A DNA stretch of 33,616 nucleotides from Alphaproteobacteria bacterium (lineage in GTDB: Bacteria; Pseudomonadota; Alphaproteobacteria; Micavibrionales; Micavibrionaceae): positions 581-34,196 of the forward strand of contig JAACQG010000018.1 in assembly GCA_009995045.1 (NCBI GenBank), in the 5' to 3' direction. Below the pieces are notes generated by a model. The model did no database searches. It saw only the letters and a list, made by a program, of their open reading frames with translations, and was not told the DNA's origin. Both the position numbers and the translations under genes were made by a program. This document shows, piece by piece, positions 1-22,704 of the stretch (within the stretch, counting starts at the first letter, position 1; the number at the start of each line of letters is the position of its first letter).

Positions 1-793
1 TAAATACTGCGGCGGGTGGGGCGTTATGCCATAGAAAGCCCATCCCTGCGCCGATGACTGCGCCGCAGAAAATGGCGAGCTCGCCTGTACCGAGGACGTA
101 ATGCACCTGTAGGTATTCGGCGAATTTTATGTTTCCGACCAGATAGCTGATGATGCCGAAACAGGCGGCGGCGATCATGACAGGGACGATGGCGAGGCCA
201 TCAAGGCCATCGGTGAGATTGACCGCGTTGGATGCGCCGACAATGACGAGCACGCAAAACGGGACGATGGCGAAGCTTAAGGGGACGAGGAAATCTTTGA
301 CAAACGGAATGGAGAGGCCAGAGGTGAATGACCAGTCATTGAGGGTTGCGATCGCGCAGAACGCGGCGAGCGCGATTGCGGATTCAAGCAGCAGGCGGAT
401 TTTGCCCGACACCCCTTCATGGGAGCGTTTGGTGAGCTTTTTGTAATCGTCGGCAAAGCCAATAGCGCCAAAGCCAAGGAACACTCCAAGCACAGACCAG
501 ATATACATGTTGGACAAATCTGCCCATAACAAGGTGGAGATGCTGGCGGCGATGAGGATCATGAGGCCGCCCATTGTTGGGGTGCCGTGTTTATGGGCAT
601 GGTCGGGGCCGATTTCACGTAAAGGCTGGCCTGCGCCTTGTTTGCTTTTTAGCCATCTGATCACTTTCGGGCCGATGATAAAGCCAATGACGGCGGCGGT
701 CAGGATAGCGCCGCCTGTGCGGAAGGTGATGTAGCTGAAAAGGTTGAAGATGATATATTTTTCAGCGAGTGGCGTTAGCAAGTGGTAGAGCAT
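1..793 (-). CDS. mraY: MraY, phospho-MurNAc-pentapeptide transferase, 3' end cut by window
   Basis: MraY transfers phospho-MurNAc-pentapeptide from UDP to undecaprenyl phosphate on the inner face of the inner membrane, giving lipid I. About 264 residues are readable from the ATG at 793 and the frame runs off the left edge. Visible family motifs are GTPTMGGL near residue 70, the FADDYKK aspartate pair that binds the catalytic metal and substrate, and NLTDGLDGLA further on, set among repeated hydrophobic segments. The start lies one base after the stop of the preceding short ORF, so the two are probably translationally coupled. It is the last visible member of the dcw operon. Identity is certain; only the C-terminal part (about 100 residues in a typical member) is missing because of the window edge. 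Confidence 0.96.
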   Translation of the reverse strand, partial: MLYHLLTPLAEKYIIFNLFSYITFRTGGAILTAAVIGFIIGPKVIRWLKSKQGAGQPLREIGPDHAHKHGTPTMGGLMILIAASISTLLWADLSNMYIWSVLGVFLGFGAIGFADDYKKLTKRSHEGVSGKIRLLLESAIALAAFCAIATLNDWSFTSGLSIPFVKDFLVPLSFAIVPFCVLVIVGASNAVNLTDGLDGLAIVPVMIAAACFGIISYLVGNIKFAEYLQVHYVLGTGELAIFCGAVIGAGMGFLWHNAPPAAVF

Positions 794-794
794 T

Positions 795-1268
795 TTATAA
801 TTTTCCGGTGTTGATCATTTTCGCGGGCGAAACGGAGCGCATCATTCCTGCCAGTTTAAAACAAGCACGATTCGGCAGGTGACGGAAGATCACATAATCA
901 CCGGGGGCTACGATTTCGGGTATGACGGGGATAAGCTTTTGCTTGCCTGCTTGTTCTTTGAGGGCGAGTTGCGCGTTGTGAACAAGGCGTGGGCGACGCC
1001 CCGTGAAGACGCAATTGAGGTTTGCGATTCTGGGCGGGATTGCCATGCGGCTTTGGCTGATATCCTGTGCGATTTTGATCAAGGCGGGGTCTTCTTCGCG
1101 CATGCCGGGGAAGGCGTTTTCGAGGACGATGGTCTGGCTGTTACGCCCTGTATCGATGAGGCTTGCGACTTTTAGGACGGTGTATGGTGAGCGCGGGGCG
1201 CGGCTTACGCTAACCGTGGTTCCGCGCACTTTCAGCGATGACCATAGGGTACGATTGTTGATATTCAT
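795..1268 (-). CDS. Short protein in the murF slot; resembles only the MurF C-terminal domain
   Basis: This 157-residue ORF lies exactly where murF normally sits, between murE and mraY. A strong ribosome-binding site, AAGGAG, lies 6 bases before the ATG, and the stop abuts mraY, so it looks like a live gene. By eye it can be laid on MurF domain 3: SRAPRSPYTVLK falls where the YNANP-S-AL motif is expected, TIVLENAFPGM where VLGDMxELG is expected, and GDYVIFRHLPNRACFKLAGMM where GDxVLVKGSRxxxM is expected. The diagnostic residues of all three motifs are replaced. There is no P-loop (TGTNGKT), so it cannot be a working ligase alone. It may be a remnant, a domain split from a relocated MurF, or an unrelated protein. 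The homology is inference by eye; the location and RBS are seen directly. Confidence 0.6.
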   Translation of the reverse strand: MNINNRTLWSSLKVRGTTVSVSRAPRSPYTVLKVASLIDTGRNSQTIVLENAFPGMREEDPALIKIAQDISQSRMAIPPRIANLNCVFTGRRPRLVHNAQLALKEQAGKQKLIPVIPEIVAPGDYVIFRHLPNRACFKLAGMMRSVSPAKMINTGKL

Positions 1269-1294
1269 GATTTCTCCTTATTTCAATCAGATGC

Positions 1295-2695
1295 TTAGAG
1301 TTGTTTTATGGCGTTTAGGGCTACGGTAACGTCGTCGAATGGATCGGTGTGGTCGGCAAAGATTTGGCCTTGCTCGTGACCTTTTCCGGCGATGACGAGG
1401 GTGTCGCCCTGGGTTAGGGTTTTGATGGTTTGGTGGATGGCGTCTCGGCGGTTGCCTATTTCGGTGAGGGTGTTGGAGGCGCTTGGCGCGTGGGGAGCCG
1501 CATCCAGAATGGCGCGGCGGATGGAGGATGGATCTTCGGAGCGTGGGTTATCATCGGTGACGATCACCGCATCGGCGAGAGAGGATGCGATTTTGCCCAT
1601 TTCGGGGCGCTTGCCTTTGTCCCGATCACCGCCGCAGCCGAACAGGCAGATGAGGCGGTTTTTGGTGTGGGGGCGTAGGGCGGTGAGGACGTTTTTGAGG
1701 GCGTCGGGGGTGTGGGCGTAGTCAACGAAGATCGCCGCGCCCGATGGGTGGCCATTGACCAGTTCCAAGCGGCCGCGCGCGCCGGAGAGATTTTCGAGGG
1801 CGTGAATGGCTTTTTCGGTGTCGACTTTGTTTTGGGAAAGCACGAGGCCGAGGGCGCATAGGGCGTTGAGAATTTGAAACTCCCCGACCAGATTAATATT
1901 AAGTCGATACGTATCGTTTAATATTTTAAGCTCGCATAATTGTCCATGCGCGGTGGGGGTGAGGGATAGGATTTTGAGGTTCTGCCCTGCCCGCCCGTAT
2001 GTCCAAATATCGCCTGTGGCTTGGCGTTTTATTTGCTGGGTTATTGTTTTGGTTTCAGGGATGTCCGCGTTTAAGATTGCGGTTGCGCCGTCCTGCATGA
2101 CCTCGGTGAAGAGGCGCGATTTGGCGGTCAGGTATTCATCCATATCGGCATGATAATCGAGGTGGTCGCGCGATAGATTTGTGAATCCGGCGGCTTGTAT
2201 ATTTACCCCATCGAGGCGGTGTTGATGGAGGCCGTGGGAGGATGCCTCCATGGCGAGATGGGTGATGCCTTCGGCTTTTAGTTTTTGAAGGTTTTTATGA
2301 AGAGAGATAGGATCGGCCGTGGTCATGCCCCCCTGTAGCGTGCCGATAGATGCGGCGTTATAGCCGAGGCTGCGCCATATTTGTTCGACGAAATTGACGA
2401 TGGAGGTTTTACCGTTTGTGCCCGTCACGGCGACGATTGTGTCGGGTTGCCCGCTGTAGAATTTTGCGACCAGATGGGCGAAATCCTTACGCGGGTTTGC
2501 GCTGTTTATAAAGTCTGCGCCGCTAATTGGGGTTACGCTATCGTCGGTGAGGATTATCGCCGCACCCGCGTCGATTGCGGATTGGATGTAATCGCGGCCA
2601 TCGCTTTTTTCGCCCTTAAAGGCGGCGAAGAGGAAACCGTCGCGCACTTCGCGGCTGTCTTGGGTGAGGCCGTTGATGGAGGAGAGATCGATCAT
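1295..2695 (-). CDS. murE: MurE, UDP-MurNAc-L-Ala-D-Glu:meso-diaminopimelate ligase
   Basis: MurE adds the third stem-peptide residue to UDP-MurNAc-L-Ala-D-Glu in the cytoplasm, using ATP. The 466-residue product carries TGTNGKTS (91-98, ATP P-loop), MEASSHGL (149-156), the AKSRLF lysine K192 expected to be carbamylated, YAHTPDAL (326-333), and DNPRSEDP (382-389). DNPR is the signature for meso-diaminopimelate rather than lysine. The N-terminal domain is slightly shorter than in many homologues. Its ATG overlaps the ftsI stop in an ATGA junction, which indicates translational coupling. The next ORF begins 26 bases downstream of the stop with its own strong ribosome-binding site. Confidence 0.97.
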   Translation of the reverse strand: MIDLSSINGLTQDSREVRDGFLFAAFKGEKSDGRDYIQSAIDAGAAIILTDDSVTPISGADFINSANPRKDFAHLVAKFYSGQPDTIVAVTGTNGKTSIVNFVEQIWRSLGYNAASIGTLQGGMTTADPISLHKNLQKLKAEGITHLAMEASSHGLHQHRLDGVNIQAAGFTNLSRDHLDYHADMDEYLTAKSRLFTEVMQDGATAILNADIPETKTITQQIKRQATGDIWTYGRAGQNLKILSLTPTAHGQLCELKILNDTYRLNINLVGEFQILNALCALGLVLSQNKVDTEKAIHALENLSGARGRLELVNGHPSGAAIFVDYAHTPDALKNVLTALRPHTKNRLICLFGCGGDRDKGKRPEMGKIASSLADAVIVTDDNPRSEDPSSIRRAILDAAPHAPSASNTLTEIGNRRDAIHQTIKTLTQGDTLVIAGKGHEQGQIFADHTDPFDDVTVALNAIKQL

Positions 2696-5750: not shown

Positions 5751-5860
5751 GATGGACTCTGAATAAGGCTAAAGAACAAGCCTTGACTCTATTAGAGGTA
5801 TCACTTGGCTTAGCGATTCGTCAAATTTTCCGCCGAGTCGCATACAAGTTGTGCACATAT

Positions 5861-6074
5861 AATTTTTTGTGGGGGAATCATTGCCAGAATCAAAAGCCGT
5901 CTCTTGGGGCTATATTTCTGCCACAAACAAACCTTCGGTTTGCTTCGTATTTAATTTTTTGTGGGGGAATCATTGCCAGAATCAAAAGCCGTCTCTTGGG
6001 GCTATATTTACACCACGAACAAACCTTCGGTTTGCTTCGTATTTAATTTTTTGTGGGGGAATCATTACCAGAAT
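5861..6074. repeat. 92-bp direct tandem repeat, 2.3 copies
   Basis: The unit starts AATTTTTTGTGGGGGAATCA and begins at 5861, 5953 and 6045, an exact 92-base period. The third copy ends after about 30 bases, and the first two differ at only a few positions. Each full unit ends with a hairpin, CAAACC-TTC-GGTTTG, flanked by GAA and CTTCG. A similar hairpin is found at 14595-14660. The repeat sits between rnpB and rsmH where mraZ and its promoter would normally be. Recent tandem duplication is the simplest explanation. Confidence 0.9.
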
Positions 6075-6092
6075 TAATTTTACCTTCAAACC

Positions 6093-21304: not shown

Positions 21305-21399
21305 CGCATCTTGGGTTATACTAGAGGTCAATCTTGATTTTATTGATTGCATTTGCTGCGTAATATTTAACCGTTATTTGACATGAAACAGGAATGTGC

Positions 21400-22704
21400 A
21401 TGCAGCCCAATAAACCAGATCCCAGCACGCTTGCGCCGATGAGCCAAAGAGAGCTGAATCATGTTATGAAGAAACATAGCATGTATCTTAAAGGTGAGAT
21501 TGGAGGCGGGCGCGCGGTTTTGCAATACTGCAATTTGTCGGGTTTAGACCTTAGCAATCAAGACCTTTCACAAGCCGATTTTACAGCCTCTCATTTTCGC
21601 GATGCCAATCTTTCAGGCGGTAATTTTAAATCAGCCAGTTTTTTTGCCTGTGATTTGCGCAATGCCAATATGCGCAACGCCAATTTGTGCCGTGTTGATT
21701 TTCGCGGGGCTTATGTCAGTGGCGCGGATTTAACGGGTGCGGATTTGACGGATGCAGATATGCGTGAAGGCAAAGTGATGCGGCGCGGCACAGATGGCAC
21801 AATGGAAGATCAGGCACGATCAGGCGGCGGCAAAGGCTCTAAGACGATATTCACGGGTGCAAAGCTTAAAGATACCAATATGGAAGGTGTGCAGGCCAAT
21901 CAGGCGGATTTTTCAGATGCGGATATGACCGGCGTTATCTTAAAAGACACCGATTTGGGCGGGGCGAGCTTTGTTGGCGCAAACCTAGCGGATGCCGATA
22001 TGACTGGTGCGGATCTTAGCAATACCAATATGCGCGATTCTGTTATGACGGGTGCAATTTTGGCCGATGTTGAAGATCAGGGTATGATCAGCTATGGCGC
22101 GATTACCGAAGCGGATATGGGCAACAAGCTTGAAAACCTTGGTAAGAGCTTGGCGGAATTGCTTGAAGAGCACACGCTTTGGGTTTCAACCGCAGGGAGC
22201 GCAGGGCGAAAGCTGGATTTGAGCGATTATGATTTGCGCGATGTCTTGAATTTACGCAAATTCCCGCTCACGGCGATTGATGCGTCTGGCGCGATTTTCA
22301 TCGGGCAGGATTTGCGCGAAGCGGAGATGCAATCGGGCGTTTTTGACCGTAGTGATTTTCGTGATTGCAATCTTGGTGGGGCGGATTTGCGTGGCTCTAG
22401 CTTTAAATATTCGGTGTTTACGCGGGCGAATATGAAGGGCGTAAAATTATGTCCGCTTGAGTTTAAAAAAGACGGACAAGAAAGCCGATTAAAGCGCGTT
22501 GATATGAGCGGATCGATCATGAAATACGCCAATTTTGAAGCGGCGGATTTGCGTGATTGTATCTTGATGGGGGTTGATTTAAGCCACGCCAATTTAAAAG
22601 GGGCGGATTTGCGCCGCGCGGATTTAACGGGTGCCATATTGGATGAAGCCAATCTTGATGGCGCGAAGCTGGATGATACGGCGATAGATTTGGCCAATTT
22701 GTAA
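21400..22704 (+). CDS. Pentapeptide-repeat protein
   Basis: From the ATG at 21400 (AGGA 6 bases upstream, preferred to the ATG at 21394, which abuts it) the product has 434 residues. It consists mostly of A(D/N)LXX pentapeptides (ADLTG, ADLTD, ANLKG, ANLDG). They fall in an N-terminal block (about 45-125), a middle block (about 150-225) and a C-terminal block (about 255-430). A non-repeat segment, LENLGKSLAELLEEHTLWV and onward, separates the last two. Such proteins fold as a right-handed square beta-helix; some mimic DNA and protect gyrase, most have unknown roles. There is no signal peptide. Nothing in the context identifies a partner. Confidence 0.9.
   Translation: MQPNKPDPSTLAPMSQRELNHVMKKHSMYLKGEIGGGRAVLQYCNLSGLDLSNQDLSQADFTASHFRDANLSGGNFKSASFFACDLRNANMRNANLCRVDFRGAYVSGADLTGADLTDADMREGKVMRRGTDGTMEDQARSGGGKGSKTIFTGAKLKDTNMEGVQANQADFSDADMTGVILKDTDLGGASFVGANLADADMTGADLSNTNMRDSVMTGAILADVEDQGMISYGAITEADMGNKLENLGKSLAELLEEHTLWVSTAGSAGRKLDLSDYDLRDVLNLRKFPLTAIDASGAIFIGQDLREAEMQSGVFDRSDFRDCNLGGADLRGSSFKYSVFTRANMKGVKLCPLEFKKDGQESRLKRVDMSGSIMKYANFEAADLRDCILMGVDLSHANLKGADLRRADLTGAILDEANLDGAKLDDTAIDLANL

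Follow-up and report, generated by a model that had tools for sequence, protein, structure and literature searches.

A non-catalytic remnant of MurF between murE and mraY, and a candidate membrane ligase in its place, in Micavibrionaceae and other bacteria

The window analysed here is a whole stretch of 33,616 nucleotides (nt) from an alphaproteobacterium of the family Micavibrionaceae (GenBank assembly GCA_009995045.1, contig JAACQG010000018.1, positions 581 to 34,196 of the forward strand), in which the place between murE and mraY (the "slot"), where murF is expected, is occupied by an open reading frame (ORF) of 157 amino acids (aa). We consider it probable that the ligase MurF underwent a non-orthologous replacement by a membrane protein, called here the membrane MurF, and that the old protein was retained in the slot as a putative non-catalytic, probably structural component. 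MurF usually counts as one conserved protein that is essential and serves as a drug target. Its apparent replacement by a different architecture in several lineages, with the old protein staying after the loss of catalysis, opens the questions of MurF roles beyond catalysis and of an addition of the last stem-peptide residues on the membrane.

Origin of the slot protein

The 157-aa protein descends from canonical MurF, because the slot of its relatives holds full, dead or short forms of this protein and because profile comparisons link the short forms to the dead ones and the dead ones to the full ones. In pairwise hhalign comparisons, 12 short orthologues matched 13 canonical MurFs with a probability of 97.4% (E 1.2e-11) over about 120 residues, in the C-terminal part of MurF only; the short forms matched domain 3 of the long dead forms at E 1.2e-33, and six long dead forms (414–430 aa) aligned with MurF over its whole length at E 6.4e-65. 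The short-form profile compared with the membrane MurF as a negative control gave a probability of 2.3%, indicating no relation. In a search with the profile of the 12 short forms (E-values scaled to 100,000 sequences), 14 of 17 canonical MurFs were found at 3.3e-7 or better, the other three not being among the matches listed, and the dead form of genome G024 reached only 0.18. Against the canonical profile, the window's own copy is the weakest of the 12 short forms (E 4.1), so that its membership in the MurF family rests on its orthologues; it is 43% identical to those of G004 and G007. A reading of the window from its letters alone (the sequence-only reading) had aligned this ORF by eye to MurF domain 3, and the profile–profile comparison bears this out, although the Pfam model Mur_ligase_C gave no match.

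The 157-aa protein had no matches in the Pfam and NCBIfam searches, and none of the 12 short orthologues matched the Mur models of Pfam, including Mur_ligase_C (PF02875), at the gathering score. Profile comparison shows that the uridine diphosphate (UDP)-binding domain 1 is absent (with the usual MurF domain boundaries), sequence and profile comparison agree on the absence of the middle domain with its P-loop GSxGKT, and motifs of the YNASP, GDMxELG and KGS types are gone. Because domains 1 and 2 and the catalytic motifs are lost, this protein cannot act as a ligase. The sequence-only reading was thus correct as to the missing ATP-binding and UDP-substrate domains and the altered motifs (YNANP, GDMxELG and KGSR types), as well as to the position of the ORF and its AAGGAG site. 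The dead forms that were read lack the GSVGKT P-loop, YNN, EMGMNH, YNASP and GDMLELG, and their KGS is lost or altered.

An in-frame internal deletion of domains 1 and 2, which kept the start codon and the binding site, is the likely source of the short form, since its first 14 or so residues resemble the start of MurF; the tryptophan of the LW[ST] motif is absent from some short forms (G004 and G007). In a tree of five cluster proteins (48 rows), a clade of 26 genomes holds dead or short forms only. According to its starred branches, the short state must have arisen at least twice; the gene tree of domain 3 is compatible with a single origin.

The AlphaFold model of the short form, built on 12 rows, is a point against our overall reading: it is beta-rich (predicted local distance difference test score, pLDDT, 74; predicted template modelling score, pTM, 0.65) and differs from the fold of MurF domain 3. 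Structure searches gave no decisive match. Together with the lack of a Pfam Mur match, it speaks for a short protein with a new fold and an unrelated function, which we hold to be improbable. Given its 12 rows, either the model could be mistaken or the remnant could have changed its fold.

The membrane MurF as a candidate replacement

Judging from its sequence, the chemistry of MurF has probably moved to the membrane MurF encoded near murB. The best match of the genome to the MurF model TIGR01143 is a protein of 554 aa on another contig (L001:1456-3120), beside murB, which scores 208.5–208.8 bits, below the curated cut-off of 288.6, and covers profile positions 65–403 only; the other four matches lie in frames taken as MurE, MurC and a cut MurD. 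Pfam recognises Mur_ligase_M and C domains in the membrane MurF and did not find the N-terminal Mur_ligase domain (domain 1), which is replaced by about 180 mostly helical residues with hydrophobic segments. The P-loop TGSxGKTS and the motifs EMGAYG and [YF]N[SA]NP are kept in 22 aligned sequences (with Y changed to F in some), the structural model has a pLDDT of 89, and its best PDB matches are MurF structures (E 1.5e-22). From these motifs, and from the lack of any over-cut-off MurF match in the genome, we infer that the membrane MurF adds D-Ala-D-Ala. The window's genome is 93.75% complete, and relatives at 99–100% have the same pattern; in congeners, the membrane MurF and the slot are about 9 kb apart on a single contig.

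The sequence-only reading had offered a full MurF elsewhere, a split enzyme or a changed stem-peptide synthesis as ways out, and had called for a genome search for MurF and ddl. The first proposal stands in that catalysis is probably located elsewhere, and falls in that the protein found differs from a standard full MurF: it is a MurF-like ligase in which a membrane domain takes the place of domain 1. Stem-peptide synthesis may also be changed. A split enzyme is not supported, because the membrane protein has middle and C-terminal domains of its own and occurs beside empty slots in several genomes. The search yielded no MurF over the cut-off and a divergent Ddl that narrowly misses its own, with 244.1 against the 245.65 of TIGR01205 (hmmscan), and that matches the Ddl sequences in solved structures. 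Ddl scores above the cut-off are found in 24 of 29 genomes with canonical MurF versus 2 of 24 with the membrane MurF. Read by eye, the Ddl seems to carry extra residues following the DFKQKY stretch, and its NPIPGSFG motif seems changed.

This Ddl, an alpha/beta hydrolase and the membrane MurF form a cassette that recurs in unrelated bacteria. Within the available flanks of the best 80 named loci with a membrane MurF (more matched), the hydrolase is present in 75 and the divergent Ddl in 66; many loci lacking a partner end near a contig end, and despite long flanks L168 is without both and L144 without the Ddl.

Distribution of the two MurF types

Among 58 genomes of the order, 29 have a canonical MurF over the cut-off, 24 have the membrane MurF, none has both and five have neither. 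The membrane MurF scores at least 365 bits in 23 of the 24; in the remaining one (G033) it is in two pieces. In G033 (L083:7011-8312 and L084:7480-8925), the open frame containing mraY is unusually long, and it is the membrane part of the membrane MurF that is shortened. A canonical MurF over the TIGR01143 cut-off is missing from 12 of 14 genomes chosen for their membrane MurF, which belong to the 20 from named loci described below. A sample of 115 genomes drawn from the class contains 105 with canonical MurF over the cut-off and seven with the membrane MurF, six of which (the window's genome included) lack an over-cut-off canonical form and one of which has both; in the remaining four genomes, the match falls below the cut-off, is broken up by contig ends, or is missing.

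Hosts of the membrane MurF include Micavibrio-like metagenome-assembled genomes (MAGs), Labrys, Azospirillum, Marivibrio, Blastochloris, Kordiimonas, Desulfovibrio and Acidobacteriota MAGs. Its tree suggests repeated transfer: going by the starred branches, no fewer than four changes between the window's order and others are needed, the order membership being our own assignment.

States of the slot in relatives

When the 58 genomes of the order were searched with the 157-aa protein, 22 matched (itself included), with open frames of about 150 to about 560 aa; the matches cover six of the seven congeners searched and further genera, and the short ORFs sit between murE and mraY. An assembly artefact, such as a deletion or frameshift, is therefore an unlikely source of the short ORF. 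Four states of the slot can be distinguished: canonical MurF, dead MurF of 325–430 aa, a short form of 133–160 aa, and nothing. The slot of the 24 genomes of the order with the membrane MurF holds a short form in 12 and a long dead form in four; it is empty in three and unreadable in five, so that an intact short or long dead ORF is present in 16 of the 19 genomes with a readable slot. In 20 further genomes, picked from named loci of the membrane MurF, the slot contains a short form (four), a long dead form (four), a middle-domain piece of about 245 aa (two), no recognised gene (eight) or canonical MurF (two). The six genomes of the class sample that have the membrane MurF besides the window's comprise one with canonical MurF, one (G112) with a dead MurF–MurE fusion, three with an empty slot and one unreadable.

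Dead pieces of MurF are thus found in three other membrane-MurF genomes, Marivibrio halodurans, bin.17 and G112. For the proteins of about 245 aa between murE and mraY in Marivibrio halodurans (L202:2919-3665) and bin.17 (L206), the match to MurF is confined to the second half of its middle domain (hhalign E 9.4e-9). In G112 (L219:2654-5065), a MurE of 803 aa is fused C-terminally to MurF domains 1–2 with a destroyed P-loop, and the genome has a membrane MurF.

All 16 genomes with a dead or short form among the 58 have the membrane MurF, and in the 18 of 29 canonical genomes that were read, a MurF-sized gene adjoins murE (one is cut by a contig end). Both facts would also suit a remnant that serves the membrane MurF specifically, as its partner or regulator, for instance by helping it to accept the tripeptide precursor. 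We regard this as rather unlikely: the membrane MurF also occurs in genomes with an empty slot, and a small scan found no MraY or MurE residue that separates the two groups.

Alternatively, the slot ORF may be kept only as a leader whose translation links that of mraY to that of murE, its amino acids being irrelevant. The spacing invites this idea, as 1 nt separates the stop codon from the mraY ATG in the window and the ORF overlaps mraY by 11 nt in several relatives. Yet the gap reaches 70 nt in the congener G005, other membrane-MurF genomes have mraY directly after murE, and the amino acids are under purifying selection (below), which leaves this idea with a very small probability.

Selection on the slot gene

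The slot gene is under purifying selection in the relatives. The ratio of nonsynonymous to synonymous substitution rates (dN/dS, Nei-Gojobori) was calculated for ten genome pairs, and the five finite values are 0.111, 0.088 (dS 2.1), 0.130, 0.076 and 0.082. For these five pairs, the murE values are 0.115, 0.119, 0.053, 0.148 and one undefined; mraY lies at 0.02–0.10 and the membrane MurF at 0.05–0.17. Most differences in the slot gene fall on third codon positions, and all five pairs show greater similarity in the slot protein than in MurE. The suggestion of the sequence-only reading that selection retains this remnant is backed by these values.

They also bear on the possibility that the slot gene is a functionless pseudogene caught in the middle of its decay. 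Such decay would suit the loss of domains 1–2 and of the motifs, the empty slots and the different fragments kept by different lineages. It agrees poorly with the intact ORFs of most readable slots in the order and with the low dN/dS, the third-position changes and the similarity of the slot proteins, and we consider it very improbable.

Several observations weigh against a retained structural component. Half of the ten dN/dS pairs are saturated, two of the five finite ones are long dead forms sharing one genome (the other three being short forms), and all values come from relatives, the window's own copy having no close one. mraY is tighter than the slot gene in four of the five pairs (0.02–0.07, with 0.10 in the fifth), and in the pair G035–G073 the constraint on the slot gene (0.130) is weaker than that on murE (0.053). 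In six long dead proteins, the mean pairwise identity of domains 1, 2 and 3 is 0.56, 0.46 and 0.45 (0.49, 0.55 and 0.61 in canonical MurF); all three domains are constrained, domain 3 is not the most conserved, and deeper pairs of these proteins give dN/dS per domain of 0.17–0.56 where finite. The slot is empty beside the membrane MurF in 3/24 genomes of the order, 8/20 from named loci and 3/6 of the class sample. Finally, lineages differ in what they keep: the window's clade has domain 3, Marivibrio and bin.17 a piece of the middle domain, and G112 domains 1–2, which argues against one simple interface.

Proposed course of the replacement

We suppose that a membrane MurF, acquired by transfer with the hydrolase and the divergent Ddl alongside, displaced canonical MurF. 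The old murF would have lost its catalytic motifs first, and the window's clade would then have lost domains 1 and 2, probably by an in-frame deletion that left the start, the ribosome-binding site and domain 3. By analogy with known Mur complexes, the remnant may still bind the former partners of MurF in a Mur/MraY/MurG assembly and may hold or tune this complex without catalysis; a putative adaptor role, as the sequence-only reading had proposed, would fit.

Because the membrane MurF has no UDP-binding domain, we also considered that it acts after MraY on the lipid-linked tripeptide. In this version, to which we give little credence, the product of MurE would go straight to MraY, and the dead MurF would survive as a physical link between MurE and MraY. 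If true, the pentapeptide would be completed on the membrane, and a supposedly fixed pathway order would be changed in many bacteria.

Features of the window and other observations

Coordinates of the features are collected in Table 1. The window has a tandem repeat (5857-6077) upstream of its cluster of division and cell-wall genes, with a unit of 92 nt, two copies 95% identical and a partial third, and at 21394-22704 it encodes an ORF of 436 aa rich in pentapeptide repeats (ADLxx type, by eye). The genome G031 (96% complete) yielded a single Mur-ligase match, a weak one (E 2.2e-11), with nothing for mraY and no strong match for Ddl; it may come from a member of the same family that makes no peptidoglycan.

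Table 1. Features of the slot region (window positions) and of the cassette
Feature	Location	Strand	Basis
Slot ORF, 157-aa non-catalytic MurF remnant (pseudo-MurF, short form), ATG start	795..1268	-	sequence, orthologues, profile comparisons
Residues 24-155, homologous to MurF domain 3	804..1199	-	hhalign against long dead (residues 24-152) and canonical MurF (24-155)
N-terminal ~14 residues (NNRTLWSSLK), similar to the start of MurF (LW[ST])	1227..1268	-	comparison by eye; inference
AAGGAG ribosome-binding site (CTCCTT on the forward strand), 5 nt before ATG	1274..1279	-	sequence
murE, upstream neighbour	1295..2695	-	Pfam Mur_ligase, M and C domains
mraY, downstream neighbour, truncated at the window edge (360 aa in L108)	2..793	-	Pfam Glycos_transf_4, MraY_sig1
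Cassette of divergent Ddl (417 aa), alpha/beta hydrolase (255 aa) and membrane MurF (554 aa), downstream of murB	L028:6173-10034 (G000:C24)		

Comparison with known systems

The closest known counterpart of the slot protein is domain 3 of MurF (TIGR01143; solved structures include 1gg4, 4qdi and 4cvk), with which it shares the murE–mraY position and homology over about 120 C-terminal residues. It differs from MurF in having neither domain 1, nor the ATP-binding domain 2, nor the catalytic motifs, and in escaping detection by Pfam and NCBIfam.

The membrane MurF resembles MurT of the MurT/GatD complex in being a relative of Mur ligases that is not bound to hold a UDP-linked substrate. MurT/GatD is reported to amidate lipid I and II, not UDP-linked precursors (PMC6085368), and may be taken, by analogy, as a precedent for a Mur-type ligase on a lipid-linked substrate. 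In the same description, MurT/GatD is a water-soluble complex in which MurT works with GatD, whereas the membrane MurF keeps MurF-type motifs and adjoins a Ddl and a hydrolase.

For the remnant, the relevant case is the MurE–MurF fusion of Bordetella pertussis, which is reported to bind MurG, a possible scaffold (PMC6420597), so that MurF can make contacts within a Mur complex. This fusion is, by the same account, a bifunctional enzyme, whereas the MurF in the slot described here is dead or reduced to a single domain.
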